DNA of 64,000 bases from Candidatus Mycobacterium wuenschmannii (GTDB lineage: Bacteria > Actinomycetota > Actinomycetes > Mycobacteriales > Mycobacteriaceae), in the NCBI RefSeq assembly GCF_030252325.1, contig NZ_CP126981.1, forward strand, positions 4,650,001 through 4,714,000, read 5' to 3'. Below, piece after piece: positions 8,496-64,000 of the stretch (within the stretch, counting starts at the first letter, position 1; each line of letters starts with the position of its first letter). Made by a program: the position numbers and the translations under genes. A model generated the notes under the pieces. That model had not been told where the DNA came from, did no database searches, and worked only from the letters and a program-made list of their open reading frames with translations.

Positions 8496-8497
8496 AC

Positions 8498-15100: not shown

Positions 15101-15411
15101 CTTGTTTGCCTCACCCCGGACATCGACATTTATTTGAATTTCAGGACCGCGAAATGGCACGCGCGAACCGGAGACAGATTAGCGGGTCGAGGGCCCAACT
15201 GTCCCGTCCCATGGGCGAATTCATGTTTCCCGTTTGTGTTCCTGAACTGCGCGTTACTGCCAAGTGTCCGGCGGGTGACGAGCGTCGGGCACCCTTCCTT
15301 TCGGCGCGCGATCGACACCTCGTTTCGCTAACCTGACCCCGTGCCACGACAGGCGGAGCTAAACCCCGTAGTGCCAGTTCCCTTCCGGCAGATTCGGGAC
15401 GGCGGCCAGCA
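15101..15411. other. Divergent intergenic region between pstS and the DUF4436 gene
   Basis: 311 bases. An unusually AT-rich patch at 15127-15142, about 30 bases before the pstS start, likely contains its -10 element, but no hexamer pair could be fixed. TAACCT at 15329-15334 is a possible -10 for the rightward gene. No pho-box-like repeat was recognised and no gene is seen. Confidence 0.4.
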
Positions 15412-16329: not shown

Positions 16330-16381
16330 CGAGCTGGAATTCCGCGCGTCCGCGCGCCGATAACCGCCTTCGACCAGCAAT

Positions 16382-16410
16382 TTGGCGCTGAGCAGGTCTT
16401 CACCTAGACT
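16382..16410 (+). promoter_or_regulatory. spc operon promoter
   Basis: TTGGCG (16382-16387) and TAGACT (16405-16410) are spaced by 17 bases. The -35 closely matches that of the S10 promoter at 1161. The -10 lies in an 11-bp palindrome CTAGACTCTAG (16404-16414). The leader to rplN is about 155 nt. Confidence 0.65.
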
Positions 16411-16571
16411 CTAGGGGTTGCCGTGGGCAGACCTCGGCTGGCAAACGAGTTTCAACGTCAGCCCCGCGTGCCTTTCGACGACAAAGACCATGCATGACGG
16501 GTCTGACGGACGTGTGTCCTTCAGCGTGCCAACGCATGGGCGTTCATACGTGAACCAGGTCAGGAGATCGA

Positions 16572-16940
<369 letters not shown>

Positions 16941-17258
16941 ATGAAGGTGCACAAGGGCGACACCGTCCTCGTCATCTCGGGTAAGGACAAGGGCGCCAAA
17001 GGCAAAGTGATCCAGGCGTTCCCGACCCGCAACAAGGTGCTCGTCGAGGGCGTCAACCGGATCAAGAAGCACACCGCGGTCTCGACCAACGAGCGTGGCG
17101 CGCAGTCCGGCGGCATCGTCACGCAGGAAGCGCCCATCCACGTCTCGAACGTCATGGTGGTCGACTCCGACGGCACGCCTACCCGTATCGGGTACCGGGT
17201 CGACGAGGAGTCCGGCAAGCGGGTTCGCATCTCCAAGCGCAACGGCAAGGACGTCTAA
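16941..17258 (+). CDS. rplX: 50S ribosomal protein L24
   Basis: 105 aa, [21 protein letters not shown], a KOW domain protein and an assembly initiator of the 50S subunit. Starts one base after the rplN stop. Confidence 0.98.
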
Positions 17259-17261
17259 GGC

Positions 17262-17831
17262 ATGACTACGACAGAAGAAGCGAAGGTTCAGCCCCGGCTC
17301 AAGACGCGCTACCGCGGCGAGATCCGCGAGGCGCTGAACAAGGAATTCGCCTACGGCAACGTCATGCAGATTCCGGGCGTGGTCAAGGTCGTGGTGAACA
17401 TGGGTGTCGGCGACGCCGCCCGGGACGCCAAGCTGATCAACGGCGCGGTCAACGACCTGGCGCTGATCACCGGCCAGAAGCCGGAAATCCGCAAGGCCAC
17501 CAAGTCGATCGCCCAGTTCAAGCTCCGCGAAGGCATGCCGATCGGCGCGCGCGTCACGCTGCGCGGCGACCGGATGTGGGAGTTCCTGGACCGGCTGATC
17601 TCCATCTCGCTGCCGCGTATCCGTGACTTCCGCGGGCTGAGCCCCAAGCAGTTCGACGGCCGGGGCAACTACACCTTCGGGCTGACCGAGCAGTCGGTGT
17701 TCCACGAGATCGACGTGGACAACATCGACCGCCCGCGCGGCATGGACATCACCGTCGTCACCTCGGCGACCAATGACGACGAGGGCCGAGCGCTGCTGCG
17801 CGGCCTCGGCTTTCCGTTCAAGGAGAAGTGA
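17262..17831 (+). CDS. rplE: 50S ribosomal protein L5
   Basis: 189 aa, [21 protein letters not shown], with the conserved [19 protein letters not shown] segment. Binds 5S rRNA. The stop is directly followed by rpsZ. Confidence 0.99.
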
Positions 17832-17832
17832 C

Positions 17833-18018
17833 ATGGCGAAGAAAGCTCTGATCAACAAGAGCCAGCGCAAGCCGAAGTTCAAGGTGCGCGCGTACACCCG
17901 CTGCAACAAGTGCGGCCGCCCGCACGCGGTTTTCCGCAAGTTCGGGCTGTGCAGGATCTGCCTGCGTGAGATGGCGCATGCGGGCGAACTGCCCGGCGTG
18001 GCAAAGAGCAGCTGGTAA
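17833..18018 (+). CDS. rpsZ: 30S ribosomal protein S14, zinc-binding (type Z)
   Basis: 61 aa from ATG 17833 ([20 protein letters not shown]). A zinc ribbon is formed by CNKC and CRIC separated by 13 residues, so this is the C+ paralogue; mycobacteria usually have a zinc-free S14 elsewhere for zinc limitation. A 135-nt gap before rpsH contains no recognised gene. Confidence 0.97.
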
Positions 18019-18153
18019 CAGCGAAAACCCAGACCAACCCAGAACAGGTGCGCGGCAGGCCCGTACGGGGAACCGCCGTGAGGAAGGTACCAACGCTGTC
18101 ATGACCGCGATGTCGACGATGCAGAGCGTAGCGATGAAGAGGAGCAGCGCTCG

Positions 18154-18552
18154 ATGACTATGACGGATCCGATCGCAGACTTTTTGACGCGTCTGCGCAA
18201 CGCCAACTCGGCGTACCACGACGAGGTGACGCTCCCGCACTCGAAGATCAAGGCCAACATCGCCGAGATCCTCAAGCGCGAGGGTTACATCACCGACTAC
18301 CGCACCGAAGACGCGCGCGTCGGTAAGGCGCTGACCGTTCAGCTCAAGTACGGGCCGAGCCGGGAGCGCAGCATCGCCGGCCTGCGCCGCGTGTCCAAGC
18401 CCGGTCTGCGGGTGTACGCGAAGTCGACCGGCCTGCCGCGCGTGCTCGGCGGTCTGGGCGTCGCGATCATCTCGACCTCCTCGGGCCTGCTCACCGACCG
18501 TCAGGCAGCCAGACAGGGCGTGGGCGGCGAAGTCCTCGCGTACGTGTGGTGA
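18154..18552 (+). CDS. rpsH: 30S ribosomal protein S8
   Basis: 132 aa, [20 protein letters not shown], ending with the conserved [11 protein letters not shown]. It binds the central domain of 16S rRNA. Start could be either of two ATGs two codons apart; the first matches the M. tuberculosis protein. Confidence 0.99.
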
Positions 18553-18566
18553 GAGGGGACTGACAC

Positions 18567-19106
18567 ATGTCGCGTATTGGTAAGCAACCGATTGAAATTC
18601 CTTCGGGCGTCGAGGTTTCCATCGACGGCCAGCAGGTCTCGGTGAAGGGTCCCAAGGGCACCCTGGACTTGAAGGTCTCCGAGCCGATCAGTGTGGCGCG
18701 CAACGACGATGGTGCCATCGTGGTCACCCGGCCGGACGACGAGCGGCGCAACCGGTCGCTGCACGGACTGTCCCGCACCCTGGTGTCCAACCTGGTCACC
18801 GGCGTGACGCAGGGCTACACCATCAAGATGGAGATCTTCGGCGTTGGTTACCGCGTGGTGGCCAAGGGCAGCAACCTCGAGTTCGCCCTGGGTTACAGCC
18901 ACCCGGTGTTGATCGACGCGCCGGACGGCGTGACCTTCGCGGTCGAGACGCCCACCAAGTTCTCGATCTCGGGTATCGACAAGCAAAAGGTCGGCCAGAT
19001 CGCGGCCAACATCCGCCGCCTCCGTAAGAGCGATCCCTACAAGGGCAAGGGAATTCGCTACGAGGGCGAGCAGATCCGCCGCAAGGTCGGAAAGACAGGT
19101 AAGTAG
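18567..19106 (+). CDS. rplF: 50S ribosomal protein L6
   Basis: 179 aa, [20 protein letters not shown], with the C-terminal [22 protein letters not shown] motif seen as [17 protein letters not shown]. Followed by rplR after 2 nt. Confidence 0.99.
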
Positions 19107-19108
19107 TC

Positions 19109-19513
19109 ATGGCGCAAACACAAGCCGGTACCGCGCAGAAGCCGTCGTCGCAGAACGTTTCTGCGGTGCGGCGCAAGCAGCGGCTGCGTCGTCACGCGCG
19201 GCTGCGTAAGAAGATCTCGGGCACCGCGGAGCGTCCGCGCCTGGTGGTGCACCGCTCGTCGCGGCACATCCACGTGCAGTTGGTCGACGACCTGACGGGT
19301 ACGACCGTGGCCGCCGCTTCCTCGATCGAGGCGGACGTGCGCGGCGTCGAGGGCGACAAGAAGGCGCACAGCGTCCGGGTCGGCCAGTTGATCGCCGAGC
19401 GCGCCAAGGCCGCCGGCATCGACACGGTGGTGTTCGACCGCGGTGGCTACACCTACGGCGGACGGATCGCGGCTCTGGCCGACGCCGCCCGCGAAGGTGG
19501 ATTGGAATTCTGA
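19109..19513 (+). CDS. rplR: 50S ribosomal protein L18
   Basis: 134 aa. Core from [21 protein letters not shown] to the terminal [21 protein letters not shown]. Binds 5S rRNA with L5. A 31-nt spacer with a TTTGGAGGGACC ribosome binding site leads to rpsE. Confidence 0.99.
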
Positions 19514-19544
19514 TGGCTAGTAACAACTTTGGAGGGACCGCATA

Positions 19545-20225
19545 ATGGCGGAGCAACCGGCTGGGACTGCCGGCCCGAGCAACGAGGGCGGCCGCTCCGA
19601 CGATCGCCGCGACAATCGTGACAACCGGGGCCGCCGGGACGGTGGCGGCCGCGGCGGTCGTGACCGCGACGGCGACAAGAGCAACTACCTGGAGCGGGTC
19701 GTCACCATCAACCGCGTCTCCAAGGTCGTCAAGGGTGGTCGGCGCTTCAGCTTCACCGCGCTGGTCATCGTCGGTGACGGCAACGGCATGGTCGGCGTCG
19801 GCTACGGCAAGGCCAAGGAAGTTCCCGCCGCCATCGCCAAGGGTGTCGAAGAGGCCCGCAAGGGATTCTTCCGCGTCCCGCTGATCGGTGGCACGGTCGT
19901 CCACCCGGTGCAGGGTGAGGCCGCCGCCGGTGTCGTGCTGCTGCGTCCGGCCAGCCCCGGTACCGGTGTGATCGCCGGTGGCGCCGTTCGCGCGGTGCTG
20001 GAATGTGCCGGTGTGCGCGACGTGCTGGCCAAGTCGTTGGGCAGTGACAACGCGATCAACGTCGTGCACGCGACGGTCGCCGCGCTCAAGCTGCTGCAGC
20101 GTCCCGAAGAGGTCGCTGCGCGTCGTGGCCTGCCGTTGGAGGATGTCGCTCCGGCCGGCATGCTGCGCGCCCGCCGCGAAAGTGATGCGCTGGCCGCCAG
20201 CGCCGCTCGTGAAGGAAACGCGTAA
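19545..20225 (+). CDS. rpsE: 30S ribosomal protein S5
   Basis: 226 aa. A charged Asp/Arg/Gly-rich extension of about 45 residues precedes the S5 domain ([20 protein letters not shown]) and the second domain ([21 protein letters not shown]). Ribosomal fidelity protein. Followed by rpmD after 3 nt. Confidence 0.99.
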
Positions 20226-20228
20226 ATC

Positions 20229-20423
20229 ATGGCGCAACTCAAGATCACCCAGGTGCGCGGCACCATCGGCGCCCGCTGGAAGCAGCGGGAAAGCCTTCGC
20301 ACACTGGGACTTCGGAAGATTCGTCAGTCGGTGGTCCGCGACGACAACGCGCAGACCCGCGGGCTGATCAAGGCCGTCCACCACCTCGTTGAGGTCGAGC
20401 CGGCCGAAGGAGGCAGCAAGTGA
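20229..20423 (+). CDS. rpmD: 50S ribosomal protein L30
   Basis: 64 aa, [20 protein letters not shown], of usual length. The TGA overlaps the rplO GTG (20420-20423). Confidence 0.98.
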
Positions 20424-20860
20424 CCATCAAACTGCACGACCTGCGTCCCGCGCCCGGGTCGAAGACCAAGCGCACCCGCGTCGGCCGCGGTGAGGGCTCC
20501 AAGGGTAAGACCGCCGGTCGAGGCACCAAGGGTACGAAGGCTCGCAAGAACGTGCCGGCCACCTTCGAGGGTGGGCAGATGCCGATCCACATGCGGCTGC
20601 CCAAGCTGAAGGGGTTCCGTAACCGGTTCCGCACCGAGTACGAAGTCGTAAACGTCGGCGACATCAACCGGCTGTTCCCCAAGGGCGGTTCGGTCGGCGT
20701 GGACGAGCTGGTGGCCAAGGGTGCGGTTCGCAAGAACACCCTCGTCAAGGTTCTCGGCGACGGGAAGTTGGCCGTCAAGGTCGACGTCACCGCGCACAAG
20801 TTCAGCGGCAGTGCGCGCGAAAAGATCAGCGCGGCAGGCGGTTCGGCGACCGAGCTCTAA
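20420..20860 (+). CDS. rplO: 50S ribosomal protein L15
   Basis: 146 aa from GTG 20420: [20 protein letters not shown], with the glycine/lysine-rich N-terminal region [20 protein letters not shown]. Last gene of this spc segment; the stop codon sits in the loop of the hairpin at 20851-20868. In E. coli secY follows directly; here about 13.6 kb intervene, as in M. tuberculosis. Confidence 0.99.
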
Positions 20861-51713: not shown

Positions 51714-52950
51714 GTCGACGACACCTGTGGTCGCCCGGTTGCGTTCCGCCGCACGGACGGAGAATCGCGCGGCGGGCGAGCGGCTGGCCGCCATCGGCGA
51801 GATCGACCTGTTGTTCCTGCGCGAGGCCGGTGAACGGGAGTCGTGGTGCACCGATACCCACGAGGCGGTCGCCGCCGAAGTCGCCGCGGCGCTCGGGATC
51901 ACCCGCGGGCTGGCGACGAGTTACCTGGAGTACTCCCGGGCGCTGCGGATCCGGCTGCCGCGGGTCGGGGCTTTGTTGCTGGCCGGCGACATCGACTACC
52001 GGACGTTTCAGACTGTCGTCTACCGCACCGATCTGATCACCGATCCCGACGTGCTGACCGCCGTCGACGGGGAGTTGGCCGTGAAAGTCCCGCGCTGGTC
52101 GGAGATCTCGCAGGGTCGGCTGGGTGCGTACGTCGACCGCGTGGTCGAACGTACCGATCGCGATGCGCTGCGACGACGCCGCGAGACCCAGGCCGACCGC
52201 GAGTTTTCGATCTGGGGTAACACCGACGGCCTCACCGAGGTCTTCGGACGCCTCGTGACGGCCGACGCGCACGCTGTCGATGCGCGACTGGACGCGCTGG
52301 CGGCCACGGTGTGCGCTGACGATCCGCGGACCCGCAGCCAGCGTCGCGCAGATGCCATGGGCGCCTTGGCAATCGGAGCCGATCGGCTGGTGTGCCGCTG
52401 CCGGCGGGCCGACTGTCCGGCCGGGTCCAAGCCGGCGGCGAGTCCGGTGGTGATCCACGTGGTCGCCAACGAAACCGCTCTAGGCGATGTGGCGTCGACG
52501 ACGGGATCGCTGATCGGCGGCGACGCCGTCATCCCGCCGGAGGTGCTCGCCGAGTTGGCGCGCTCGGCCGAGCTTCGGCCGGTGATCCATCCCGAGGATG
52601 CGCCACCCGAGACCCGCTACACGCCATCGCAGGCGCTGGCCGACTTCGTCCGCTGTCGCGATCTCACCTGTCGGTTCCCCGGCTGCGAGACGCCCGCGAT
52701 GCGCTGCGACCTCGACCACACGATCCCGCATGGCGACGGTGGTCCGACACACGCTTCCAACCTGAAATCGCTCTGCCGTCTTCATCATCTGATGAAGACG
52801 TTCTGGGGCTGGCGGGATCAACAGCTACCCGACGGCACCCTGATCTGGACATCGCCCGGCGGCCAGACCTACGTCACGTCGCCGGGCAGCGCGTTGCTGT
52901 TCCCCGCGCTGTGTGCGCCGACGGGTGGGCTGGAACAGTCGGCCACCTGA
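51706..52950 (+). CDS. REP13E12-type HNH endonuclease domain protein (DUF222-HNH)
   Basis: 414 aa from ATG 51706 (MFESTTPVVARLRSAARTEN). The N-terminal two thirds is DUF222; the C-terminal HNH region is CRDLTCRFPGC...CDLDHTIPHGDGGPTHASNLKSLCRLHH, with the His-Asn-His pattern and paired cysteines intact. These proteins are a mycobacterial repeat family often associated with prophage-like elements and DNA damage induction. The expected conserved C-terminal tail is cut off by the TGA at 52948-52950 (see next entry). Start choice: ATG lies in the SOS box; an in-frame GTG at 51676 is inside the preceding terminator. Confidence 0.9.
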   Translation: MFESTTPVVARLRSAARTENRAAGERLAAIGEIDLLFLREAGERESWCTDTHEAVAAEVAAALGITRGLATSYLEYSRALRIRLPRVGALLLAGDIDYRTFQTVVYRTDLITDPDVLTAVDGELAVKVPRWSEISQGRLGAYVDRVVERTDRDALRRRRETQADREFSIWGNTDGLTEVFGRLVTADAHAVDARLDALAATVCADDPRTRSQRRADAMGALAIGADRLVCRCRRADCPAGSKPAASPVVIHVVANETALGDVASTTGSLIGGDAVIPPEVLAELARSAELRPVIHPEDAPPETRYTPSQALADFVRCRDLTCRFPGCETPAMRCDLDHTIPHGDGGPTHASNLKSLCRLHHLMKTFWGWRDQQLPDGTLIWTSPGGQTYVTSPGSALLFPALCAPTGGLEQSAT

Positions 52951-53109
52951 TCGCCGTGCGCCAATCGCTCCGCGATGATGCCCACCCGTAGGCGTACCCG
53001 CGCCCAGAATCGGGCCGCATACGTCGCGGCGCTGCGTCGTCGCAACCGGATGTTGCGGGAACCCGCTAACGTCCCGATCGCCGCTGACGACGAGCCGCCG
53101 CCTTTCTAG
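52951..53109 (+). pseudogene. Detached C-terminal tail of the 13E12 protein
   Basis: In the same reading frame as the HNH gene, directly after its TGA, the sequence continues SPCANRSAMMPTRRRTRAQN and ends ADDEPPPF before TAG at 53107-53109. A basic RRTRAQ region and a DEPPPF end are what I know from DUF222-HNH proteins, so this is their normal tail, separated by one in-frame TGA. It could also be expressed alone from ATG 52975 (44 aa), but no ribosome binding site is seen. Confidence 0.7.
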
Positions 53110-53201
53110 CAACATTGCCGAAACGCATATCCCCATGGGCGAGTGTGTTTATGGTGCCTGCACCCGGGACGACGGGTTCCGGCACCGAAAGGGGGGTCAC
53201 G

Positions 53202-53444
53202 ATGACCCAGAAACCACGTTCTCTCGGCATCAAGATCCCGGCGATGCTCGTTGCGGCGACAGGGGTTGTTGCGATCGGGCTACTGGGCGCGCCCGTCGGG
53301 CATGCCGACCCCCCGAACTGTCCGTCGGGTCAGTTCCCCGCGTCAGACGGATCGGGGTGCTCGAGCGTCCCGGACCCCACTCAATACGGCTGTCCGCCGC
53401 AGGATTACGACTGCATGTTCAAGGCCGGGCCCAAGAAAAACTGA
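53202..53444 (+). CDS. Small secreted cysteine-containing protein
   Basis: 80 aa from ATG 53202, with GAAAGGGGGG upstream. Signal peptide of about 38 residues ending GHA, then a mature part of about 42 residues rich in Pro with four cysteines (NCPSG, GCSS, GCPP, DCMF) that could form two disulfides. Many mycobacteria carry similar small secreted proteins of unknown role. Confidence 0.75.
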   Translation: MTQKPRSLGIKIPAMLVAATGVVAIGLLGAPVGHADPPNCPSGQFPASDGSGCSSVPDPTQYGCPPQDYDCMFKAGPKKN

Positions 53445-53482
53445 GGGCCGCGGACGCCGGCTGTCACCTCGCCGGTTGTTGC

Positions 53483-53683
53483 TCAGCGTCCGGGGGTTTT
53501 GCAGAGGTTGGCGGAAGCCACATCCACCAACAGAGTTGCCTCGGCCATGCCAATTCCTAATCCGTTGCTGGCCTGCATGGCGGCGTCGGGTTTGGAGGTG
53601 CCTTCGCCGAGCAGTTGGCAGATGTGGTGGGCGCTGGCAACCACAACTTTCGCCAGGCGCTGGCTGGCCCCGCCTATTTCTTG
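53483..53683 (-). pseudogene. Remnant of a DUF732-type protein
   Basis: Minus-strand frame of 66 codons ending at TGA 53483-53485, with no start codon found. It reads ASAHHICQLLGEGTS and then GMAEATLLVDVASANLCKTP, which carries the two-cysteine pattern of DUF732 C-terminal halves (compare the intact gene at 47493). The frame enters the 3' end of the small membrane protein gene at 53674. The N-terminal half with signal peptide is missing, so it is a truncated gene. It fills most of the 53445-53673 gap. Confidence 0.55.
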
Positions 53684-53901
53684 GACGGGACCACAATCAC
53701 GGCGATCAGCGTGAAGATGCTGAAGAAGAAGCCGAGTAAGCCCCAGCCGAATGGGTTGCGGCCCTTCGTCGCTGCGATGACTCCGCAGATGATGGCAGCG
53801 ATGACACCGCCGATCAGCAGGAAAATGCCCTTGATGCCCCGCAGGATCAAGCCCGCGGCTTCGGGCTGGCTGTAACTGGCCAGCAAGATCTGGTGAAGCA
53901 T
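53674..53901 (-). CDS. Small membrane protein, two transmembrane segments
   Basis: 75 aa. An excellent ribosome binding site AAGGAGGTCGTC precedes the ATG at 53899-53901. Hydrophobic segments at about 24-44 and 51-71 with GRNPFGWGLLGFFF between them and a terminal PSKK. Similar to small mycobacterial phage-shock-like or hypothetical membrane proteins; function not recognised. Confidence 0.75.
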   Translation of the reverse strand: MLHQILLASYSQPEAAGLILRGIKGIFLLIGGVIAAIICGVIAATKGRNPFGWGLLGFFFSIFTLIAVIVVPSKK

Positions 53902-53953
53902 GACGACCTCCTTGACGCCAATAATCGTCGGAGGTACCCGAAATCGCTGCGGC

Positions 53954-54556
53954 CTAATCGCCTTTCAGGCCGGCGACAAAGGCTTGGGTCTCGTCCCACG
54001 TCGGTAGCAGGCCGGCCGCGCGCGCCTCGTCCAGTGAGGGAGCGGCGGCGTCCCGGTTGGAGATCACCAGTTTGTGTCCGCGCGGCCAGTCGATGGCCAG
54101 CGCCGGATCGGTGGGGGAGATGGTGTGTTCGCGCTGCGGGTTGTACTCGGTCGAGCACAGGTACATCACCGTCGAATTATCCTGCAGCGCAAGAAAACCG
54201 TGCGCCAGCCCCTCGGAGATGTACACCGAGTTGTGGCTCCCCTCATCGAGCACGACGGCGTCCCACCGGCCGAACGTCGGCGAACCCATCCGAATGTCGA
54301 CCACGACGTCGAACACCGAACCGGACACGCACGTCACGTATTTCGCCTGGCTCGGCGGTAGTTGGGCGAAGTGCAGGCCGCGCAGCACCCCGGCCGACGA
54401 CACCGAGCAGTTGGCCTGCCGGACGTCGAATCGATGTCCCGCGAACTCGGTGAAGGCGCGATCGGTGAGCCATTCGAAGAACAGCCCGCGAGAGTCGGGA
54501 TGCACCGCGGGCGTGATCTCCCACGCGCCGGAGATGTCCAGTCCACGCCCATCCAT
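53954..54556 (-). CDS. rmlC: dTDP-4-dehydrorhamnose 3,5-epimerase
   Basis: 200 aa, close to Rv3465. Cupin fold with catalytic His in GVLRGLHFAQLPPSQAKYV and Tyr near LCSTEYNPQREHTI. Step three of dTDP-L-rhamnose synthesis, needed for the rhamnosyl linker between peptidoglycan and arabinogalactan. One nt behind rmlB. Confidence 0.96.
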   Translation of the reverse strand: MDGRGLDISGAWEITPAVHPDSRGLFFEWLTDRAFTEFAGHRFDVRQANCSVSSAGVLRGLHFAQLPPSQAKYVTCVSGSVFDVVVDIRMGSPTFGRWDAVVLDEGSHNSVYISEGLAHGFLALQDNSTVMYLCSTEYNPQREHTISPTDPALAIDWPRGHKLVISNRDAAAPSLDEARAAGLLPTWDETQAFVAGLKGD

Positions 54557-54557
54557 C

Positions 54558-55562
<1,005 letters not shown>

Positions 55563-55621
55563 CTAGCGCGCCGACGATGCAGAGCGCGTAGCGCGATGAG
55601 GAGGAGGTGGGCGGTTAAGCC

Positions 55622-56485
55622 CTAGCCCGGGGGCGTCAAACCGAGGGGTCCGGCCAGCGCTTCCAGCGCGCCGATGAGCTTGCCGTCGGGCCCGCCCAGC
55701 ACCTGGATCGCCACATGATCCGCGCCGGCGTCTACGTGCTCGCTCAGTCGCGCCGCGATCTGCTCGGCGGTGCCGTGCGCGACGACGGCGTCAATCAGCC
55801 TGTCGCTGCCGGGTTTATGGACATCGGCATCGGTGAAGCCGAGCCGGCGCCAGTTGTTCACGTAGTTGCTCAGGTCTAGGTAGAAGTCGACGGTGCGCCG
55901 ACCGATCTCGCGGGCCTCGTCGGCGTTCTCGGTCAGCACCACCTTGTGCTCGGGGGCCAGGAAAACGGCGTTGCCGATCAGCTCGCGGGCCTGTGCGGTG
56001 TGCTGGGGTGGCGTCAGGTAGGGGTGCGCGCCGGCGCTGCGCTCTGCGGACAGGGCCAGCACCTTGGGTCCCAGCGCGGCCAGCACCCGCCGACTGGTCG
56101 GCACCGACGCGCCGTCGAGCTCGTCGAGATATTCGACCAGCGCGTCGTACGGCTTCTTGTACACATCGGTGTGTTCGGGATGCCCCACCCCGACGCCGAG
56201 CAAAAACCTTCCGGGATAAGCCTTTTCGATACGGTGATAGGAGGCGGCGACCTCTGCCGCCGGCGACGCCCAGATGTTGACGATCCCGGTCGCCAGCACC
56301 AGCGACGAGGTCTCGGCCAGGGCGGGTTCCACCCAGCCGAGGTCGGCGTCGGGGGAGCCGCCGACCCAGACCGCGCCGTAGCCCAGCGCCTCGATCTGCT
56401 TGGCCACCCCCGGGCTGACGGAACGGCCGGGAAGCCAGACGCCGTATCGACCCAGGTCGGGTTTGAGCGAAACGCCCTCGGTCAT
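55622..56485 (-). CDS. F420-dependent luciferase-like oxidoreductase, Rv3463-like (copy A)
   Basis: 287 aa, MTEGVSLKPDLGRYGVWLPG. Features of TIGR03620-type proteins: IEALGYGAVWVGGSPDADLGWVEP, ATGIVNIWASPAAEVAASYHRIEKAYPGRFLLGVGVGHPE. In M. tuberculosis the single Rv3463 lies next to rmlB, as here. Substrate unknown. A second copy directly upstream suggests tandem duplication. Confidence 0.92.
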   Translation of the reverse strand: MTEGVSLKPDLGRYGVWLPGRSVSPGVAKQIEALGYGAVWVGGSPDADLGWVEPALAETSSLVLATGIVNIWASPAAEVAASYHRIEKAYPGRFLLGVGVGHPEHTDVYKKPYDALVEYLDELDGASVPTSRRVLAALGPKVLALSAERSAGAHPYLTPPQHTAQARELIGNAVFLAPEHKVVLTENADEAREIGRRTVDFYLDLSNYVNNWRRLGFTDADVHKPGSDRLIDAVVAHGTAEQIAARLSEHVDAGADHVAIQVLGGPDGKLIGALEALAGPLGLTPPG

Positions 56486-56505
56486 CTACGTCCCTTTCTG
56501 GTTCG

Positions 56506-57357
56506 TCAGGCCGGCGTGAGTCCGAGCGGCCCCGCAAGTTCGGCCAACGCGGACACCAGGTTTTCATCTTTGGTCAAGATCTGCACAGGCACGTGGTCGG
56601 CACCGGCGTCGAGGTGCTCTTTCAACCGTGCCGCGATCGCCTCCGGCGTGCCGTAGGCGACCAGCGCGTCGATGAGGCGGTCGCTGCCCGGATAGGTGGT
56701 CTCCTCTTCGGAAAACCCGAGCCGCTTCCAGTTGTTGCGGTAGTTGGCCAGGTTGAAGTAGACCGGCAGCACCTTGCGGGCGATCGCCCGAGCCTCGTCG
56801 GCGTCGGTGGTCAGCACCGCCTTGTGCTCCGGCGCCAGGAACGCCGACGGCCCCATCAGCTCGCGCGCCCGCGCGGTGTGTTCGGGGGCTGTCAGATACG
56901 GGTGCGCGCCCGCGCTGCGCCGCGCCGACAGCTTCAGCACCTGCGGGCCCAGCGCCGCGACGACGCGTCGGTTGGCGGGCACGCCGTGCTCGTCGAGCTG
57001 ATCCAGGTACTCCGCGAGCGCGTCGTAGGGCTTCTTGTATTCGGTGATCGCCTCCGGGTGCCCGACGCCGATGCCCAGCAGGAAGCGTCCGGGGTAGGCG
57101 CGGTCGATGCGGTGGAACGACTCCGCCACCGGCGCGGCGGCGTCCGACCAGATGTTGACGATGCCGGTGGCAACCTGCAGTGTCGTCGTCGCCTCGAGAA
57201 TCGGCTCGACCCAGGCCAGCTCGGCGGGCGGGGAGCCACCCACCCAGACGGAGCCGTAGCCGAGGGCCTCGATGTCTCTGGCCTGCTCGGGGGTGACGCC
57301 GCGGCCGAAGGATCCGAACCGGCCGAGATTGGGTTTGCTCGCTGCAGAATCGGTCAT
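56506..57357 (-). CDS. F420-dependent luciferase-like oxidoreductase, Rv3463-like (copy B)
   Basis: 283 aa, MTDSAASKPNLGRFGSFGRG. Same architecture as copy A (IEALGYGSVWVGGSPPAELAWVEP; GVGHPEAITEYKKPYDALAEYL; GSDRLIDALVAYGTPEAIAARL) with clear divergence, so an old duplication. Twenty nt upstream of copy A and 20 nt from the divergent mmpL gene. Confidence 0.92.
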   Translation of the reverse strand: MTDSAASKPNLGRFGSFGRGVTPEQARDIEALGYGSVWVGGSPPAELAWVEPILEATTTLQVATGIVNIWSDAAAPVAESFHRIDRAYPGRFLLGIGVGHPEAITEYKKPYDALAEYLDQLDEHGVPANRRVVAALGPQVLKLSARRSAGAHPYLTAPEHTARARELMGPSAFLAPEHKAVLTTDADEARAIARKVLPVYFNLANYRNNWKRLGFSEEETTYPGSDRLIDALVAYGTPEAIAARLKEHLDAGADHVPVQILTKDENLVSALAELAGPLGLTPA

Positions 57358-57377
57358 GGTCGCTCCAACCTACCGCT

Positions 57378-59627
57378 GTGCGTTCTCTATTCCGGGTTTG
57401 GCGCCGGATGGCGCTGGGTAGCATCGCCTGGATGCTTTCGCTGCTGGCACGCCTGGTCATCGCTGCCCCGAAGCGAGTCCTCGCAGTCGTCCTGTTGATC
57501 ACGGTCATCGCGGCTGGATTCGGCGCCACCGTCGCCGAACACCTTGGCGCTGCGGGGTTTCAAGATCCCAGCTCACCGTCCGCGCGCGGGATGAAGGTGC
57601 TCACCTCGAAATTCGGTCAGGGTGACATGGACCTGACGTTCGTGGTCAGCGCCCCCGGCAGCGTGCAGGACCCTTCGGCGGCCGCGGCCGGGCGCAAGCT
57701 CGTGCAGGAATTACGACGATCCGAATTCGTCAACGACGTCGAATCACCTTGGGACGGCTCACCGCACAGCGCCGGCCTGATCAGTAAGGACGGCAAGACC
57801 GGGCTGGTGGTCACCGGTATCAGCGGATCGGAGAACGACGCACCCAAGCACGCCAAGGCAATTGCGGAGAAATTCACCGGCATGCGCGACGGGGTGCAGG
57901 TGCTCGCCGGCGGCACCGCCACAGTGGCCTCGGAGATCAACGACCAGTCCGAGAAGGACCTCGTGACCGCCGAGGCCATTACGCTGCCGCTGTCGTTGAT
58001 CGTGCTGGTGTGGGTGTTCGGCGGCCTCTTCGCCGCGCTGCTGCCGTTGGTGGTCGGCGGGCTGGCCATCGTCGGGACGCTCGGGATGCTGCGGGGCATC
58101 ACCCTGTTCGCCGACGTGTCGATCTTCTCCCTCGACCTCACCACCGCGATGGGCCTGGCGCTGGCGATCGACTACACGCTGCTGCTGATCAGCCGGTACC
58201 GCGAGGAGTACGTCGAGGTCGGCGATCGCGACGTTGCATTGCGGCGCGCGGTGGCGACGGCGGGGCGGACGATCCTGTTCTCCGCGTGCACGGTATTCCT
58301 CGCGGTGAGCGCGCTTGCGGTGTTCCCGATGTATTTCCTGCGCTCGATGGCCTACGCCGGCTGCGGAGTGGTGGCGCTGGCCGGCCTGTATGCCGTCGTC
58401 GTCGCTCCCGCGGTGATCAAGCTGCTCGGCGACCGGATCGAAGCGCTGAACATCCGGGCGCTGTTCCGGCGGTCCAGGCCGGATCCGGACGTGCGGCACG
58501 GCGCGCTCTATCGGGTCGCCACCTTCGTCACGCGCCACGCACTGCCGTGCGCACTGGCCGTGGTGGCGCTGCTGCTCCTGCTCGGGTCGCCGTTCGCGCG
58601 GGCCCGTTTCGGATTGCCGGACGACAGGGTGCTTCCGACGACCGCGCAGTCGCGGCAGGCCGGCGACATCGTGCGCCGGGACTTTCCCGCCGATCCGTCG
58701 GCGGCCACCTCGATAGTGATCCCCGACGCGGGCGATCTGACCATCGGTGACGTCTCCGACTACGCCACCGCCCTGTCCAATGTGCCCGGCGTGGAGGCCG
58801 TTTCGGCGCCTAATGGCTCGTACGTGAAGGGCGATAACGTCGGGCCGCCGATGTCCGCGGCCGCCGTCAAGGACGGCAGCCTGTGGCTGACGGTGTCGGT
58901 CCCGGGCTCGTCGCTGGATTCCCGGTACCGGGCGGCGGTCGACCAGCTTCGGGCGGTGCCGGTGCCGCATCGCGCCGAGGCGTTGTTCACCGGTGCCGAG
59001 CAACTGAATCGCGACTCCGTCGACGAGATCGTCCGACGCCTTCCTGTTGTGCTGTTACTGGTGGCCGCAACGACTTTCGTGCTGATCTTCCTGCTCACCG
59101 GCAGCCTGGTGTTGCCATTGGAAGCGTTGGTGCTCAACACCCTGTCGCTCTCGGCGACGCTGGGTGCGCTGGTGTTCGTGTTCCAGGAGGGCCACCTCGG
59201 CGGACTCGGAACGACGGCGACGGGCACACTGGTCGCCGACGTGCTGGTGTTCCTGTTTGCGACCGCGTTCGGCCTGTCGATGGACTACGAGGTGTTCCTG
59301 CTGTCGCGAATTCGCGAGCACTGGCTGAAATCCGAACAGCGCCAGGAAGACAACGTCGAGGCGGTGACGATGGGAATTGCGACAGCCGGCCGGGTGATCA
59401 CCGCCGCGGCGCTGTTGATGGTGATCGTGTTCGCGGCGCTGTCGACCGGCGAGGTGTCGTTCATGCGGATGATCGGCGTGGGCCTGGCGCTCGCGGTGAT
59501 CGTCGACGCCACGTTGGTCCGAATGGTGCTGGTTCCGGCCTTCATGAAGCTGGTGGGCCGCTGGAACTGGTGGGCGCCCAGGCCGCTCGCGAAACTCCAT
59601 GCGGCCGTGGGCATCAGCGAAAGCTAG
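57378..59627 (+). CDS. MmpL-family RND transporter
   Basis: 749 aa from GTG 57378; ATG 57411 or 57432 (MLSLLARLVIAAPKRVLAVV) are alternative starts and the last begins at the usual MmpL N-terminus. Twelve transmembrane segments in two halves with two periplasmic domains. Proton-relay Asp-Tyr pairs are present in LALAIDYTLLLISRYREEY (first half) and GLSMDYEVFLLSRIREHW (second half). It exports lipids in related cases; cargo unknown, but it lies tail-to-tail with the putative lipid operon. No MmpS partner. Confidence 0.92.
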   Translation: MRSLFRVWRRMALGSIAWMLSLLARLVIAAPKRVLAVVLLITVIAAGFGATVAEHLGAAGFQDPSSPSARGMKVLTSKFGQGDMDLTFVVSAPGSVQDPSAAAAGRKLVQELRRSEFVNDVESPWDGSPHSAGLISKDGKTGLVVTGISGSENDAPKHAKAIAEKFTGMRDGVQVLAGGTATVASEINDQSEKDLVTAEAITLPLSLIVLVWVFGGLFAALLPLVVGGLAIVGTLGMLRGITLFADVSIFSLDLTTAMGLALAIDYTLLLISRYREEYVEVGDRDVALRRAVATAGRTILFSACTVFLAVSALAVFPMYFLRSMAYAGCGVVALAGLYAVVVAPAVIKLLGDRIEALNIRALFRRSRPDPDVRHGALYRVATFVTRHALPCALAVVALLLLLGSPFARARFGLPDDRVLPTTAQSRQAGDIVRRDFPADPSAATSIVIPDAGDLTIGDVSDYATALSNVPGVEAVSAPNGSYVKGDNVGPPMSAAAVKDGSLWLTVSVPGSSLDSRYRAAVDQLRAVPVPHRAEALFTGAEQLNRDSVDEIVRRLPVVLLLVAATTFVLIFLLTGSLVLPLEALVLNTLSLSATLGALVFVFQEGHLGGLGTTATGTLVADVLVFLFATAFGLSMDYEVFLLSRIREHWLKSEQRQEDNVEAVTMGIATAGRVITAAALLMVIVFAALSTGEVSFMRMIGVGLALAVIVDATLVRMVLVPAFMKLVGRWNWWAPRPLAKLHAAVGISES

Positions 59628-60760
59628 GTGCGAGTCAGGTCGATCTGGCCGGCCAATTCGTGGTCGATCAGGAACGTCCCCGCCTCGCGCAGGTTCGGTG
59701 GGTGGAACGAGTACGCGCTGATGCAGCCGACCAGATAGGCGACCTCGGGGTCGGTGGCGAAGCCGACGCCGCCGACGCGAGACACCAGGCGAGAGACGCT
59801 GTGCTGCAACTGATCACGCAGACCCAGGCGGATCCACAGCAGGTCGGCGAACAGCGAGTCGCTTCGATCGCCCTCGTCGTAGCGGGCCGCGACCATCCGT
59901 AGCGCCCGCCACACCCCCTCGATCGGGGAGAACAACTCGACGAAGTCGGCCTCGGTGAAGTTCGGCCGCTCGACCAGCTTGAGCGCCAGCCGGGTCGCGG
60001 CGCCGACGTAGCCGGCGGTGATGATCAACCCGAACAAGACGTAGCCGGATTTCTCGTTGCGGCCGTCGGGGTCCTCGATGTCGCTGACCATCGACAAATC
60101 GCTTGGCACGAACACGTTCTCGAAGTTGACCGCGTGGCTCTGGGCGGCGCCTAGTGCGTGGCTGGTCCACAGCGGGCTGACTGACAGCCCCTCGCTGCCG
60201 TTCCAGATCAGCGTGATAGCGCGCTGGTCGGTGTCGCTGAGCACCACGCTGGCCATCACGCAGTCCATGCTGTCGGCCAGGCTGCACGGCTTCTTGCTGC
60301 CGGTGACCGTGTAGCCGCCGTCGGCCGGCTCGGCTTTCATCGTGGGACGAAAGACGCTGCCCTCGATGGTGCCCTCGGAGAAGCCGGAGGCGAATACGGT
60401 GTTGTTCTCGATCAGCGACTTGACCAGACCCACCGTTGTCTCGTCGGCGGTCTCGGCGAAGTCGACCAGACCGGCCACCGACAGATAGTGCATGGTGGTC
60501 GCGGCGGCCAGCGACGGGCTGAGGTAGCCGACACCGCGTTGCAGCTCAACGGTTTCCACGCATGTTGCGCCCAGGCCGCTGAGCTCCTTGGGTGCGGTCA
60601 GCCGCGGGCCGTCGTGTTGCTTCCACAGGTCGATGACGTTGGTGTCCGGGTCCTCCACGGCCATCAGCCCCAGCTTCTCGAGCTGGTCGGCCAGCGTGGG
60701 CAGGTGCTTACGCACGGCGGCGACGTAGGAGAGTCGGGCTTCGAGCGCGTTGCGATCCAT
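59624..60760 (-). CDS. Acyl-CoA dehydrogenase-fold protein
   Basis: 378 aa. The beta-barrel flavin domain shows FASGFSEGTIEGSVFRPTMKAEPADGGYTVTGSKKPCSLA and FENVFVPSDL. The usual TEPxxGSD and catalytic Glu motifs are not recognisable, so it may belong to the flavin-monooxygenase or non-dehydrogenase branch of the fold. Third gene of an operon with the epimerase (11-nt gap) and the alpha-oxoamine synthase. Stop shares CTAG with convergent mmpL. Confidence 0.82.
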   Translation of the reverse strand: MDRNALEARLSYVAAVRKHLPTLADQLEKLGLMAVEDPDTNVIDLWKQHDGPRLTAPKELSGLGATCVETVELQRGVGYLSPSLAAATTMHYLSVAGLVDFAETADETTVGLVKSLIENNTVFASGFSEGTIEGSVFRPTMKAEPADGGYTVTGSKKPCSLADSMDCVMASVVLSDTDQRAITLIWNGSEGLSVSPLWTSHALGAAQSHAVNFENVFVPSDLSMVSDIEDPDGRNEKSGYVLFGLIITAGYVGAATRLALKLVERPNFTEADFVELFSPIEGVWRALRMVAARYDEGDRSDSLFADLLWIRLGLRDQLQHSVSRLVSRVGGVGFATDPEVAYLVGCISAYSFHPPNLREAGTFLIDHELAGQIDLTRT

Positions 60761-60771
60761 GTCGAGACTCC

Positions 60772-61722
60772 TCAGTTCGGTCGGGTGGTCAAGTACTTAC
60801 GCAGGGCCGCAGCCGAATTCATCGACGGCCGCCAGTCGGTGGTCGATTGCAGCAATCCTGAGTCGAGCAGCGGGTCGCCGAGTGTCACCCAATGGCCGGA
60901 GTAGGGCGACAGGCGTAGCCGGAACAACAGGTCGGCGCCCGGCTTCAGCAGGCGCAGCGGGCCGGGGATCAGCCGAGCCCCGGTGATCGCGCAGATCTCC
61001 CGCACGCTGGTGTAGTCGGCCGGGGCGACGTTGTAGAGGCCGCCGAGGCCGTGCGAGAGGATCGTGGCATAGGCGTCCACCAGGTCGGTGTCCCATAAGA
61101 ACTGGTAGTACGACCGCGAAGGTGACGGGTAGACAACGGTTTTGGACAGCATCGTCTGTAGTCCCGAGTTGTCGAACTGTTCGCCGACGACGTAGCACGG
61201 CCGCACCACGGCCAGCGTCGTCTTGCCGTCGTCGATGTTCGCCCAATACCAGTTGGCCAGGTGCTCCAACAGGGCCTTGTGCTGGAAGTAGTAGTGCCCG
61301 GCATCCTGATCGCCTGCGGGATAACTGGTTTCGGTGTACTGCTGTCCGGTGCCACAGGCCGTGACGCCCAGCGCGTTGGCGCTGGAGGTCAGGACGAGCT
61401 GCCCGATGCCCACCTCGCGAGCCTGCGCCAGCAGGGCCCGGGTCGCCGCGACGTTGACCCGGTGAGCCCAGCGCTTGTCGTGGGATTCCTCGACGCAGTA
61501 GGCCAGGTGGATCAGCGCGTCATAGCCGCGCACCGACTCGAGGTCGACGTCGCCGCTCAGGTCGAGGAACTGCTCGCGAACCTTGTTGTGGTGCAGGCCC
61601 GTCGGCCGGCGACCCAGCGCGGTGACCTCGGCGATATCGTCGCACCCGCAGGCCCAACTGAGCACCGCGCGGCCGAAGTCCCCGGTCGCGCCGGTGATGG
61701 CGAGCCGAAAGCCGTCCCTCAT
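60772..61722 (-). CDS. NAD-dependent epimerase/dehydratase-family reductase (CerR-like candidate)
   Basis: 316 aa from ATG 61720-61722 (MRDGFRLAITGATGDFGRAV), overlapping the stop of the alpha-oxoamine synthase as ATGA. Extended-SDR Rossmann motif TGATGDFG, DALIHLAYCVEESHD, Ser-Ser in VLTSSANALG, a catalytic Tyr-x3-Lys candidate in HYYFQHKALLEHL. Such reductases reduce keto groups, and the CerR enzyme of bacterial ceramide synthesis belongs to this superfamily. Direct evidence for that substrate is lacking. Confidence 0.82.
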   Translation of the reverse strand: MRDGFRLAITGATGDFGRAVLSWACGCDDIAEVTALGRRPTGLHHNKVREQFLDLSGDVDLESVRGYDALIHLAYCVEESHDKRWAHRVNVAATRALLAQAREVGIGQLVLTSSANALGVTACGTGQQYTETSYPAGDQDAGHYYFQHKALLEHLANWYWANIDDGKTTLAVVRPCYVVGEQFDNSGLQTMLSKTVVYPSPSRSYYQFLWDTDLVDAYATILSHGLGGLYNVAPADYTSVREICAITGARLIPGPLRLLKPGADLLFRLRLSPYSGHWVTLGDPLLDSGLLQSTTDWRPSMNSAAALRKYLTTRPN

Positions 61723-62969
61723 GCAGCGGCCAGGGCCCACGAGAGTTCGGCCGACAGTGTCTTGGCGCACCAACGGATTTCGTCCTCGGTGAGTTCGGAC
61801 GTCATGCAGACCCGCAGCACCGGCTTGCCCACCGGGACGGCCGGGTAGACGGCCGGGGTGACGAAAACGCCGGCGTCGCTGAGGTTGTTCCAGCTCAACA
61901 CCGTGCGCATCTCGTCGAACAGCCGGATCGGGATGATCGGCGACCAGTCGGGACTGCGCTCGTCGGGCCGGTTCAACTCCACGTCGAGCGGTCGAAGGCA
62001 CTCACGCATCAGACGGGCGTTGCGCTCCAACTGTTCTCGGCGCCGCGCCCCCTCGTCGCTGCGGATCACGTCGATCGCGGTGGCGGCCGCGGCCATCGCC
62101 CCCGGGGTGCCGGAGGTGCTGAACCACAACGACCGTGCGCTGAACCGGATCTCGTCGACAATGTCCTGGGAGCCGGCCACGAAGCCGCCGAGCCCGCCGA
62201 TGGCCTTGGACAGCGAGCCCATCAGCACGTCGATGTGCTGCGCGACACCGTGGAGTTCCGACAGCCCGCCGCCCGTCGGGCCGAAGACACCGACGCCGTG
62301 CGCCTCGTCGACCATCAGCAGAGCGCCCGCGTTCTTGCAGACGTCGATGATGTCCTCCAGCGGGGCCGTCGACCCCTCCATCGAGTACAGCGAATCCACC
62401 AGAACGAGCACCCGTCGAAAAGCCTTGCCCGAGTGGCGTTGCAGCGCTTCCTTCAGCGACGCGACGTCGTTGTGCTCGAAGCGCTCCTCGGCCGCGCGGC
62501 TCAGCCGGACGCCGTCGCGGATCGACGCGTGCGCGTAGGAGTCGACGATCGCCAGGCAGTCCTGCCCGATCAGCCCCTGGATGGTGCCGACGTTGGTCTG
62601 GTAGCCGGTGGTGAACACCACCGCGTCGTCGTGACCAAGCCAGTCCGCGATCTTCTTTTCCAGTCCGACGTGCAGGCTGTAGGTGCCGTTGAGCAGCCGG
62701 CTGCCAGTCGTGCCGGTGCCGAAGTCCTCGGTCGCCTGAGCCGACGCGGCGATCACGTCTGGGTGTGTCGACAACCCGATGTAGGAATTCGAGCCGAGCA
62801 GCACGCACTGTCGTCCCCGAACCCCGACTCGCGGCGGATCGACGGAACTGATCTCTTGGAAGAAGGGCATCTGCCCGATCGACGCGAAGTGTCGCGCGAT
62901 AGCGACCCGCTGATTGACGTCGGTCGAGATATCCCCGGTGACGGAAAAAGTCTCTTGGTCGGTGTCCAT
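61719..62969 (-). CDS. Alpha-oxoamine synthase, serine palmitoyltransferase-like
   Basis: 416 aa from ATG 62967-62969 (MDTDQETFSVTGDISTDVNQ). PLP lysine is Lys255 in MGSLSKAIGGLGGFVAG; ring-stacking His in DSYAHASIRDG; cofactor Asp221 and His224 in MVDEAHGVGVFG. The motif FGTGTTGSRLLNGTYSLHVGLE and HNDVASL pattern resemble Bacteroides-type serine palmitoyltransferases more than BioF or Kbl. It condenses an amino acid with an acyl thioester. No other bio gene is nearby. A longer frame reaches 63026. Confidence 0.85.
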   Translation of the reverse strand: MDTDQETFSVTGDISTDVNQRVAIARHFASIGQMPFFQEISSVDPPRVGVRGRQCVLLGSNSYIGLSTHPDVIAASAQATEDFGTGTTGSRLLNGTYSLHVGLEKKIADWLGHDDAVVFTTGYQTNVGTIQGLIGQDCLAIVDSYAHASIRDGVRLSRAAEERFEHNDVASLKEALQRHSGKAFRRVLVLVDSLYSMEGSTAPLEDIIDVCKNAGALLMVDEAHGVGVFGPTGGGLSELHGVAQHIDVLMGSLSKAIGGLGGFVAGSQDIVDEIRFSARSLWFSTSGTPGAMAAAATAIDVIRSDEGARRREQLERNARLMRECLRPLDVELNRPDERSPDWSPIIPIRLFDEMRTVLSWNNLSDAGVFVTPAVYPAVPVGKPVLRVCMTSELTEDEIRWCAKTLSAELSWALAAA

Positions 62970-63057
62970 TTGCTTAGCACCCCCGTGTCGTTGCCCCTTA
63001 CGAGCGCGGAGAGCTTGGCGAAACATGAGTTACCGGTGGCATCGAGCAACTCCTGAC

Positions 63058-63076
63058 ACGCCACCCCGAGGGGCGT
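63058..63076. other. Hairpin in the kinase/oxoamine synthase gap
   Basis: ACGCC and GGCGT pair around a CCCCGAGG-containing loop (63058-63076), 92 bases after the kinase stop on the minus strand. Could end the kinase transcript or structure the leader of the lipid operon. The gap 62970-63167 holds no gene. Confidence 0.35.
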
Positions 63077-63167
63077 CCCCGCGCGTCGCCTTGCGTCGGC
63101 GTACCCGGTTGAACCACCGGTCACACCATTGTTTATTCGACGCCGATACAACGACGGATGGGTGCGA

Positions 63168-64000
63168 TTAGTTCAATTCGGCGGAGTCGCCGTCCTCCGG
63201 CAGCGCCACGTCCATGACGGGCGGCACCTCGAGTGGCAGCAGGACGATGAACCGGGTGTCGCCGGGCTTCGACTCGACGCGCAGATCGCCGTGGTGCTTG
63301 TTGACGATGATCTTCCACGCCAGGTCCAGGCCCAGCCCGGTGCCTTCGCCGACGGGCTTGGTGGTGAAGAACGGTTCGAAGATGCGCTCGAGTACGTCCT
63401 CCGGGATGCCGGGACCGGTGTCGCAGATCTCGACGCGCAGCATCTCGTTGGCCTCGCGACAGGTGCGGATCGTCAGCGTGCCGCCCTTGCTGCCCATCGC
63501 GGCGATCGCGTTGTCGATGATGTTGGTCCACACCTGGTTGAGATCGCCCGGGAAGCAGGGGATCGGCGGCAGAGTGTGATCGCAGTCCTTGGCCACCTTG
63601 ATGTGGCACGTGCTGTCCTTGCCCAATCGGTCGGCGAACATGGTCAGCGTGCTCTTCAGCAGATCGTGCACATCGGCCACCTGGAACGGCGCGCGGTCCA
63701 GCTGCGAATACTGCTTGGCATCGGCGACCAGGGCCGAAATGCGCTGGCTCGCTTCGACAAGCTGATTCATCAGCAGTTCGCTCTCGATGGTGTAGCTGAT
63801 CCACTGGATCGCCTGCCCCAACGACGTCGACGCCTCGAGTTCCTCGGCGGTGGCCGCGATGCGCTCCAGCCAGTCGGTGTCGACGCCGCCCTCGACGAAC
63901 GTCGGCGCGATGTCCCAGCCGCCGTCGATGCCGTGGTCGTCCAGCCAGTCGCCGACGGCGTCCTCGCGGTCCGCGGTCTCGATCGCGTTCAGGTGCACCG
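63168..64000 (-). CDS. Histidine kinase C-terminal part (cNMP-binding/HATPase type), incomplete
   Basis: About 277 codons visible; the frame is open to the right edge, so the N-terminus is outside. The HATPase domain is clear: NQVWTNIIDNAIAAMGSKGG (N box), ICDTGPGIPEDVLERIFEPFF (G1/F boxes), GTGLGLDLAWKIIVNKHHGDL (G2). Upstream segments EDAVGDWLDDHGIDGGW and SALVADAKQYSQLDRAPFQVADVHD match kinases in which the HELNNP His motif and a cyclic-nucleotide-binding domain lie further N-terminal. Ends 198 nt before the oxoamine synthase. Confidence 0.88.
   Translation of the reverse strand, partial: VHLNAIETADREDAVGDWLDDHGIDGGWDIAPTFVEGGVDTDWLERIAATAEELEASTSLGQAIQWISYTIESELLMNQLVEASQRISALVADAKQYSQLDRAPFQVADVHDLLKSTLTMFADRLGKDSTCHIKVAKDCDHTLPPIPCFPGDLNQVWTNIIDNAIAAMGSKGGTLTIRTCREANEMLRVEICDTGPGIPEDVLERIFEPFFTTKPVGEGTGLGLDLAWKIIVNKHHGDLRVESKPGDTRFIVLLPLEVPPVMDVALPEDGDSAELN

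Follow-up and report, generated by a model that had tools for sequence, protein, structure and literature searches.

A stretch of 64,000 nucleotides (nt) of the chromosome of Candidatus Mycobacterium wuenschmannii, hereafter the window, was analyzed; the genome is assembled as one contig of 5.10 Mb. It carries a minus-strand run of three genes, extending from 62969 down to 59624, which encode in order an alpha-oxoamine synthase (AOS), a reductase of the epimerase family and a protein with the fold of acyl-CoA dehydrogenases (ACAD). On balance, the unit is predicted from its sequence to make a long-chain, sphingoid-like amino alcohol, the nitrogen of which would be hydroxylated. A first-pass annotation of the same DNA had described these genes as a possible sphingolipid-base or ketoamine lipid operon, and its account of the unit, including the coordinates, the ATGA overlap and the 11-nt gap, was reproduced by our check of the reading frames and sequence (Table 1). 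The third gene, which that annotation treated as a side fact, is the most telling of the three. All three genes recur together in 53 of 401 genomes of the family, belonging to 12 genera, and the arrangement is therefore not a product of chance.

The third gene and its relatives

The label "ACAD-fold protein" given earlier to the third gene product holds for the fold, which is that of the ACAD-like monooxygenases, but neither the family score nor the catalytic Glu is that of an acyl-CoA dehydrogenase. The protein has no match to PF00441, a profile matched 93 times elsewhere in the genome, and its PF02770 score of 26.5 bits lies under the cut-off of 33.3. In alignment with two FadE proteins of the same genome, the Glu column of the (Y/F)EG motif is occupied by Pro354, beside His353, and neither residue varies over the 24 rows (the window protein and 23 of 120 listed relatives, from 244 found). 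A true acyl-CoA dehydrogenase was rejected on these three grounds. The nearest solved relatives by profile are the flavin monooxygenases 5z8t, DszC, KijD3 and DnmZ; profile and fold taken together lie nearest DszC/TdsC/KijD3/DnmZ, and the structural model (predicted local distance difference test, pLDDT, 88) agrees with flavin monooxygenases. Moreover, the invariant Ser160 aligns with the Ser following Cys in DszC, which we take to be Ser163 with its assigned role, and a relative of 73 % identity (P0155) carries the source name "putative isobutylamine N-hydroxylase". VlmH-type enzymes, which are two-component flavin monooxygenases, are the known entry to azoxy compounds. By context and fold, the third enzyme is predicted to be a VlmH-type amine N-hydroxylase and is called VlmH-like below.

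The context was obtained from the best 80 of 445 VlmH-like relatives in species genomes, with locus contents established by neighbor clustering and family scans. Many of these loci are close relatives, so that the counts do not represent independent events. An AOS is present in 43 of the 80 loci, accompanied by the reductase in 40 of the 43, and the reductase occurs in none of the 37 loci that lack an AOS. In those 37 loci a class-III aminotransferase (32 loci), a thioester reductase (26) or both (25) can be observed, together with VlmA (28), VlmO (27) and a VlmB-type protein (22). Among the 43 AOS loci, VlmA and VlmO were found in 2, and neither a VlmB-type protein nor a thioester reductase in any. 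Besides a class-III aminotransferase and a thioester reductase, the neighbors of the distant relatives comprise a protein with LPG_synthase_C (the VlmA type), a small membrane protein, a flavin reductase and the VlmB type, named from one member (in L091) that matches PDB 6d9f, "Putative VlmB homolog", with E 3e-155. In the small membrane protein, D51, H82, H110 and D114 are invariant in 13 of 13 rows, in exactly the published VlmO numbering; in PMC11705231 these residues are reported for VlmO as the enzyme forming the N-N bond. Judged by such contents, the clusters around the distant relatives resemble those for azoxy compounds. The pathway put forward for azodyrecin has the acyl reductase Ady2 and the transaminase Ady4 supply the amine that is hydroxylated by Ady3/Ady10, the VlmH/VlmR pair (PMC9379638). 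The AOS and its reductase stand in place of the thioester reductase and aminotransferase of most azoxy-type clusters. Furthermore, a single branch with support of 100/100 separates 44 AOS-linked rows, the window included, from 37 unlinked rows in the tree of VlmH-like proteins. The tree splits as AOS linkage does, which suggests that enzyme and substrate diverged together.

The unit thus resembles the azodyrecin and valanimycin systems (Ady2-Ady4-Ady3/Ady10; VlmH/VlmR-VlmA-VlmO-VlmB) in having an amine-supplying enzyme pair beside a VlmH-type N-hydroxylase, and 7 of the 37 loci of that type also have an MmpL gene no farther than 4.5 kb from the hydroxylase gene. It differs in that the amine would come from an AOS and a reductase of the short-chain dehydrogenase/reductase (SDR) superfamily, in place of an acyl reductase and an aminotransferase; in addition, the profiles for VlmA, VlmO, VlmB and the flavin reductase went unmatched in the window, and its VlmH-like protein belongs to a separate clade. 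Two loci, L043 (Rhodococcus tibetensis) and L052 (R. phenolicus), are alone among the 80 in combining the AOS and reductase with VlmO and VlmA, as well as MmpL and an aminotransferase, and in the tree their VlmH-like proteins lie at the junction of the two sides, with weak support (81/60). The L043 cluster (6253-20606) contains the genes for the AOS, reductase, VlmH-like protein, MmpL, VlmO, VlmA and class-III aminotransferase, with a PPDK-like protein, a DAO-type oxidase and, just ahead (4742-6259), a cytochrome P450; the last three parts were named by Pfam for L043 only. These hybrid clusters are candidates for a sphingoid azoxy pathway. An AOS and a VlmH-like protein with no reductase within the stretch examined were found in L018, L033 and L051. 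In L018 (Streptomyces lateritius, 3815-11101) they form a compact version, lined up with genes for a flavin reductase, a phosphopantetheinyl transferase and two AMP-binding ligases.

The distribution across the 401 family genomes, whose tallies were taken as one draw, as the common genome handles suggest, follows the same pattern of linkage. The VlmH-like gene is present in 65 genomes, the AOS in 62, the reductase in 54 and VlmO in 8. The AOS and VlmH-like genes co-occur in 55 genomes and lie no more than 5 kb apart in all 55. The reductase was found without an AOS in 0 of the 401 genomes; in the 54 that possess it, the AOS lies within 12 kb in all 54 and within 5 kb in 52. VlmO was detected in 5 of the 10 genomes having a VlmH-like gene without an AOS, versus 3 of the 53 three-gene genomes. 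Two of these three (G145 and G027) share coordinates with the genomes of L043 and L052, and in the third (G334) VlmO is located on a different contig from the AOS unit. In the window genome (G000), no VlmO was found by profile search, and the sole match to the VlmA profile is weak (E 1.1e-12, within a frame of 1112 amino acids). Among 24 chosen genome handles that include the window genome, VlmO and strong VlmA matches were seen only in the two hybrid rhodococci; about 22 of the 24 are distinct, since G045/G404 and G119/G403, with identical coordinates, appear to be the same genomes. With neither VlmO nor a VlmA-grade match in the window genome, the N-N (azoxy) steps that come after VlmH in Streptomyces are predicted not to occur here, and an azoxy product formed by the known route was rejected for this genome.

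The unit is patchily distributed: in the genus of the window, the draw shows it here only, with one further genome holding the AOS alone. More distant AOS proteins with no VlmH-like match nearby (38-39 % identity, E 1e-80 to 1e-82) are encoded at G297:C1:1731492 and G045:C5:91328 and may be another orphan SPT-like enzyme, that is, one resembling serine palmitoyltransferase (SPT). Two frames contain internal stop codons, one TAG in an AOS frame (G180:C37:16716-17876) and two TGA in a VlmO frame (G203:C1:5738508-5738969); they are decaying copies or sequence errors.

The synthase and the reductase

The relation of the synthase to SPT, proposed in the first-pass annotation, was borne out by phylogeny. 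In a tree of 55 rows, the AOS proteins adjoining VlmH-like genes form one group (100/99) that is joined to the SPTs with support of 99/96, apart from BioF, Kbl and ALAS; a position firmly inside BioF or Kbl, named beforehand as the outcome that would count against the lipid operon, was not observed. The union of AOS and SPT was recovered at 91/98 (bootstrap below 95) in a reduced tree of 39 rows, and with this reduced set the forced unions of the AOS with BioF (p 0.004), Kbl (p 0.006) and ALAS (p 0.011) were rejected. The AOS rows came from 40 called genes, representing 39 loci and the window, so that 4 of the 43 AOS loci are absent. Thirteen near-identical rhodococcal rows had been removed from the 55-row tree, and the reduced tree lacks 16 more, comprising 4 long or unassigned references and 12 database proteins. 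It should be noted that the AOS is placed beside the SPT references, not inside them.

All three NCBIfam cut-offs for SPT were missed (336.7 bits against 500, 334.9 against 640 and 279.1 against 670), as were those for bioF (334.3 against 426.45), Kbl (304.6 against 460 and 260.5 against 493) and ALAS (245.5 against 338.55). The two higher SPT scores and the bioF score amount to a tie, no cut-off of a curated family being passed. Identification as BioF, Kbl or ALAS was ruled out by the missed cut-offs and the rejected tree unions. In the PDB, bacterial SPTs are matched best, at 244 bits. At the residue level, all 27 clade members and all 11 SPT, Kbl, ALAS and BioF references compared have the same pyridoxal 5'-phosphate residues, H147, D221, H224 and K255. 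The SPT-type motif pointed out in the earlier annotation, GTGTTGSRLLNG, is present, but its GSR part is not specific to SPT because BioF of the same genome has TGSRLVTG. The informative position is the Asn after GSR: Asn94 of the LNG motif is shared by 27 of 27 clade members and all 4 SPT references, other residues being found in the Kbl, ALAS and BioF references. By sequence, the enzyme can be classed as an SPT-like AOS, not as a proven SPT.

Two AOS proteins described elsewhere are comparable to some extent. PfSgaB of Pseudomonas fluorescens MYb115 is likewise an AOS outside the classical SPT taxa; according to the available portion of PMC12134224, it is a polyketide synthase-linked enzyme with SPT activity that yields sphinganines as a secondary metabolite. 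It differs in being fed by the polyketide synthase, and an N-hydroxylase is not mentioned in that portion. The same paper cites a survey by SPT, CerS and CerR in which several Actinobacteria are potential sphingolipid makers. BioF2 (Rv0032) is, according to PMC12910592, an orphan mycobacterial AOS that most resembles SPTs; there it is confined to the M. tuberculosis complex and bears an extra N-terminal domain, a description that sets it apart from the AOS of the window. That paper also states that sphingolipids have never been described in mycobacteria.

The reductase gave a clear but modest match to PF01370 (49.3 bits). Ser114, Tyr145 and Lys149, which we take to be the SDR triad, are invariant over 20 rows of an alignment of the window protein with 21 of 120 listed relatives (2769 found), and in the Gly-rich motif the first Gly (G11) is invariant in 20 rows while the remaining two vary. 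The model (pLDDT 91) displays an extended-SDR fold with sugar epimerases as top matches. Such a generic fold does not name the substrate, which is indicated instead by the partner AOS, and the reductase is predicted to act on the 3-ketone. Given the constancy of this partnership and the grouping of the AOS with SPTs, the first two genes are best read as making a ketoamine or a lipid of the sphingoid type. The reductases of Rhodococcus (L020:6874-8598 and L029:7044-7760) are longer by about 210-240 residues at the C-terminus. In the two copies tested, this extension gave a sub-threshold match only, to alpha/beta-hydrolases. The mycobacterial and Dietzia frames stop near the end of the reductase part.

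Proposed pathway and alternative readings

The following steps for the synthase, reductase and hydroxylase are suggested by family, residues and linkage. The AOS would condense an amino acid with an acyl thioester to a 2-amino-3-ketone, and the reductase would convert the ketone to the alcohol. Before or after this reduction, the VlmH-like enzyme would hydroxylate the amine (R-NH2 to R-NHOH), using reduced flavin from a reductase encoded elsewhere. An N-hydroxylated sphingoid-like base would result as the end product, with acylation perhaps following, and the convergently encoded MmpL protein may carry the product to the cell envelope. In a wider and more tentative form, it is possible that mycobacteria, Dietzia and rhodococci make undescribed N-hydroxylated sphingoid bases, or lipid hydroxamates after acylation, by means of an SPT-like synthase, an SDR reductase and an N-hydroxylase repurposed from the azoxy pathway, with MmpL leading to the envelope, and that two rhodococci take the same amine on to sphingoid azoxy compounds.

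Several observations weigh against N-hydroxylation of a sphingoid-like base. The assignment to VlmH was made by profile, fold and context, and in the comparison of folds the dehydrogenases trail the flavin monooxygenases by at most 2 Z units. A flavin reductase partner was not matched in the window and is present in 1 of the 43 AOS loci. Moreover, the linkage is imperfect in the family genomes, 10 of which hold a VlmH-like gene without an AOS and 7 an AOS without a VlmH-like gene.

It is rather unlikely, yet deserves first mention among the alternatives, that the VlmH-like enzyme oxidizes the alpha-aminoketone further, to an oxime, nitroso or nitro compound, or that the N-oxidized ketone cyclizes or dimerizes, for example to a pyrazine N-oxide, with a small signal or an antibiotic as the outcome. 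The sugar nitrososynthases KijD3 and DnmZ, whose reaction goes past the hydroxylamine, are among the closest solved folds, and the three loci with an AOS and a VlmH-like protein but no reductase in the stretch examined would suit such a route. The presence of the reductase in 40 of 43 AOS loci and in 54 of 62 AOS genomes, however, argues that the ketone is reduced.

A plain sphinganine or ceramide operon, in which the third gene would encode an ordinary acyl-CoA dehydrogenase or else an oxidase with an accessory role on the acyl chain, is improbable. The Caulobacter ceramide pathway is similar in pairing an SPT-type AOS with a reductase, CerR, which we take, on the word of the first-pass annotation, to be a member of the epimerase family. 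The grouping of the AOS with SPTs fits this reading, as does the published pairing of an SPT with the dehydrogenase CerR in Caulobacter; according to the same source, the pathway also requires CerS, AcpR and AasR (PMC11324152). None of these three kinds was seen among the Pfam-scanned neighbors, no sequence search aimed at them having been made. The window departs from that pathway in that its AOS stays under all SPT cut-offs and the unit includes an N-hydroxylase-like gene that has no PF00441 match, bears Pro in the Glu column and has relatives in azoxy-type clusters. Ceramide is thus probably not the end point of the unit. Of the operon proposed in the first-pass annotation, the ketoamine or sphingoid-base part is strengthened by the SPT grouping and by a reductase found with an AOS in 54 of 54 genomes, and the plain ceramide pathway is not supported.

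It is quite improbable that the unit continues to supply a pathway to an azoxy compound or another N-N product in which unrelated enzymes have taken the places of VlmA and VlmO. The gathering of the AOS, reductase, VlmH-like protein, MmpL, aminotransferase, VlmO and VlmA in one cluster in L043 and L052 speaks for it, since it implies that an AOS-type amine can probably enter the azoxy pathway. Against it, VlmO went unmatched in 50 of the 53 three-gene genomes and in G334 lies on another contig, and VlmA-grade matches among the 24 handles are confined to the L043 and L052 genomes.

The CqsA/LqsA-like synthase offered earlier as an alternative, making a hydroxyketone signal for the neighboring histidine kinase, is very improbable and was rejected: the kinase is indeed present 198 nt upstream of the AOS, but the NF005526 score reaches 209.3 bits against a cut-off of 428, CqsA in the PDB scores 134 bits against 244 for SPT, and the kinase was matched in 1 of the 80 relative loci (L012), so that it is not a conserved part of the unit.

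An N-hydroxylated sphingoid-like base would be a bacterial lipid of an unusual and possibly new type. The enzyme types are known; their combination was not found described in the titles and abstract openings of the open-licence PubMed Central papers listed. Within these, no report was found of an AOS linked with an N-hydroxylase or with an azoxy cluster, nor of N-hydroxy sphingoid lipids. If the prediction is true, a new head-group chemistry, with an N-O bond on a long-chain base, would exist in actinobacteria, and a handle would be gained on the orphan SPT-like enzymes of mycobacteria. It would also supply a genome-mining rule for telling alkylamine-type from sphingoid-type N-hydroxylases. 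Whether mycobacteria and their relatives make sphingoid bases becomes directly testable in named strains.

Surroundings of the unit

The features of the unit and of its immediate surroundings are collected in Table 1.

Table 1. Genes and intergenic region at the three-gene unit, in window coordinates (aa, amino acids)
Feature	Position	Strand	Remarks
AOS gene	61719-62969	-	416 aa
Epimerase-family (extended-SDR) reductase gene	60772-61722	-	316 aa; ATG overlaps the AOS stop codon (ATGA)
VlmH-like gene (ACAD fold)	59624-60760	-	378 aa; 11 nt past the reductase stop codon
MmpL-family transporter gene	57378-59627	+	convergent; 4-nt overlap with the end of the VlmH-like gene; PF03176, 244.7 bits
Histidine kinase gene	ends at 63168		198 nt upstream of the AOS start; HATPase_c, 87 bits
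Gap upstream of the AOS gene	62970-63167	-	198 nt; likely promoter site (inferred)

The start of the VlmH-like gene is preceded by GAGGAG. No sigma-70-like promoter was detected in 59000-64000, where terminators are at chance level, and no IdeR-like box was found across the window, so that a promoter in the gap upstream of the AOS is presumed only. An Rfam scan of 52000-64000 returned no match. The guanine plus cytosine content of the operon is 66.5 %, compared with a mean of 67.4 % (standard deviation 1.6) for stretches of 3.3 kb; being near the mean, it gives no sign of recent transfer, though the distribution is patchy.

That the adjacent MmpL protein exports the product is a reasonable guess. 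Of the 80 loci, 17 have an MmpL gene no more than 4.5 kb from the VlmH-like gene, namely 10 of the 43 with an AOS and 7 of the 37 that lack one; the two genes share a strand in 10 of these 17. Identity to the MmpL protein of the window is 73-90 % in the six loci of mycobacterial type (L012-L017) and 46-48 % in L046 and L049; the remaining loci show 30-47 %.

Beside MmpL, at 55622-57357 on the minus strand, a tandem pair of luciferase-like monooxygenase paralogues (PF00296) is encoded, and the pair is present in L012 too. Beyond it, at 53954-55553 on the same strand, are genes for a dTDP-4-dehydrorhamnose 3,5-epimerase (PF00908) and a GDP_Man_Dehyd/epimerase-family dehydratase; the sole match to the thioester-reductase profile within the window is the RmlB-like gene at 54558-55553.

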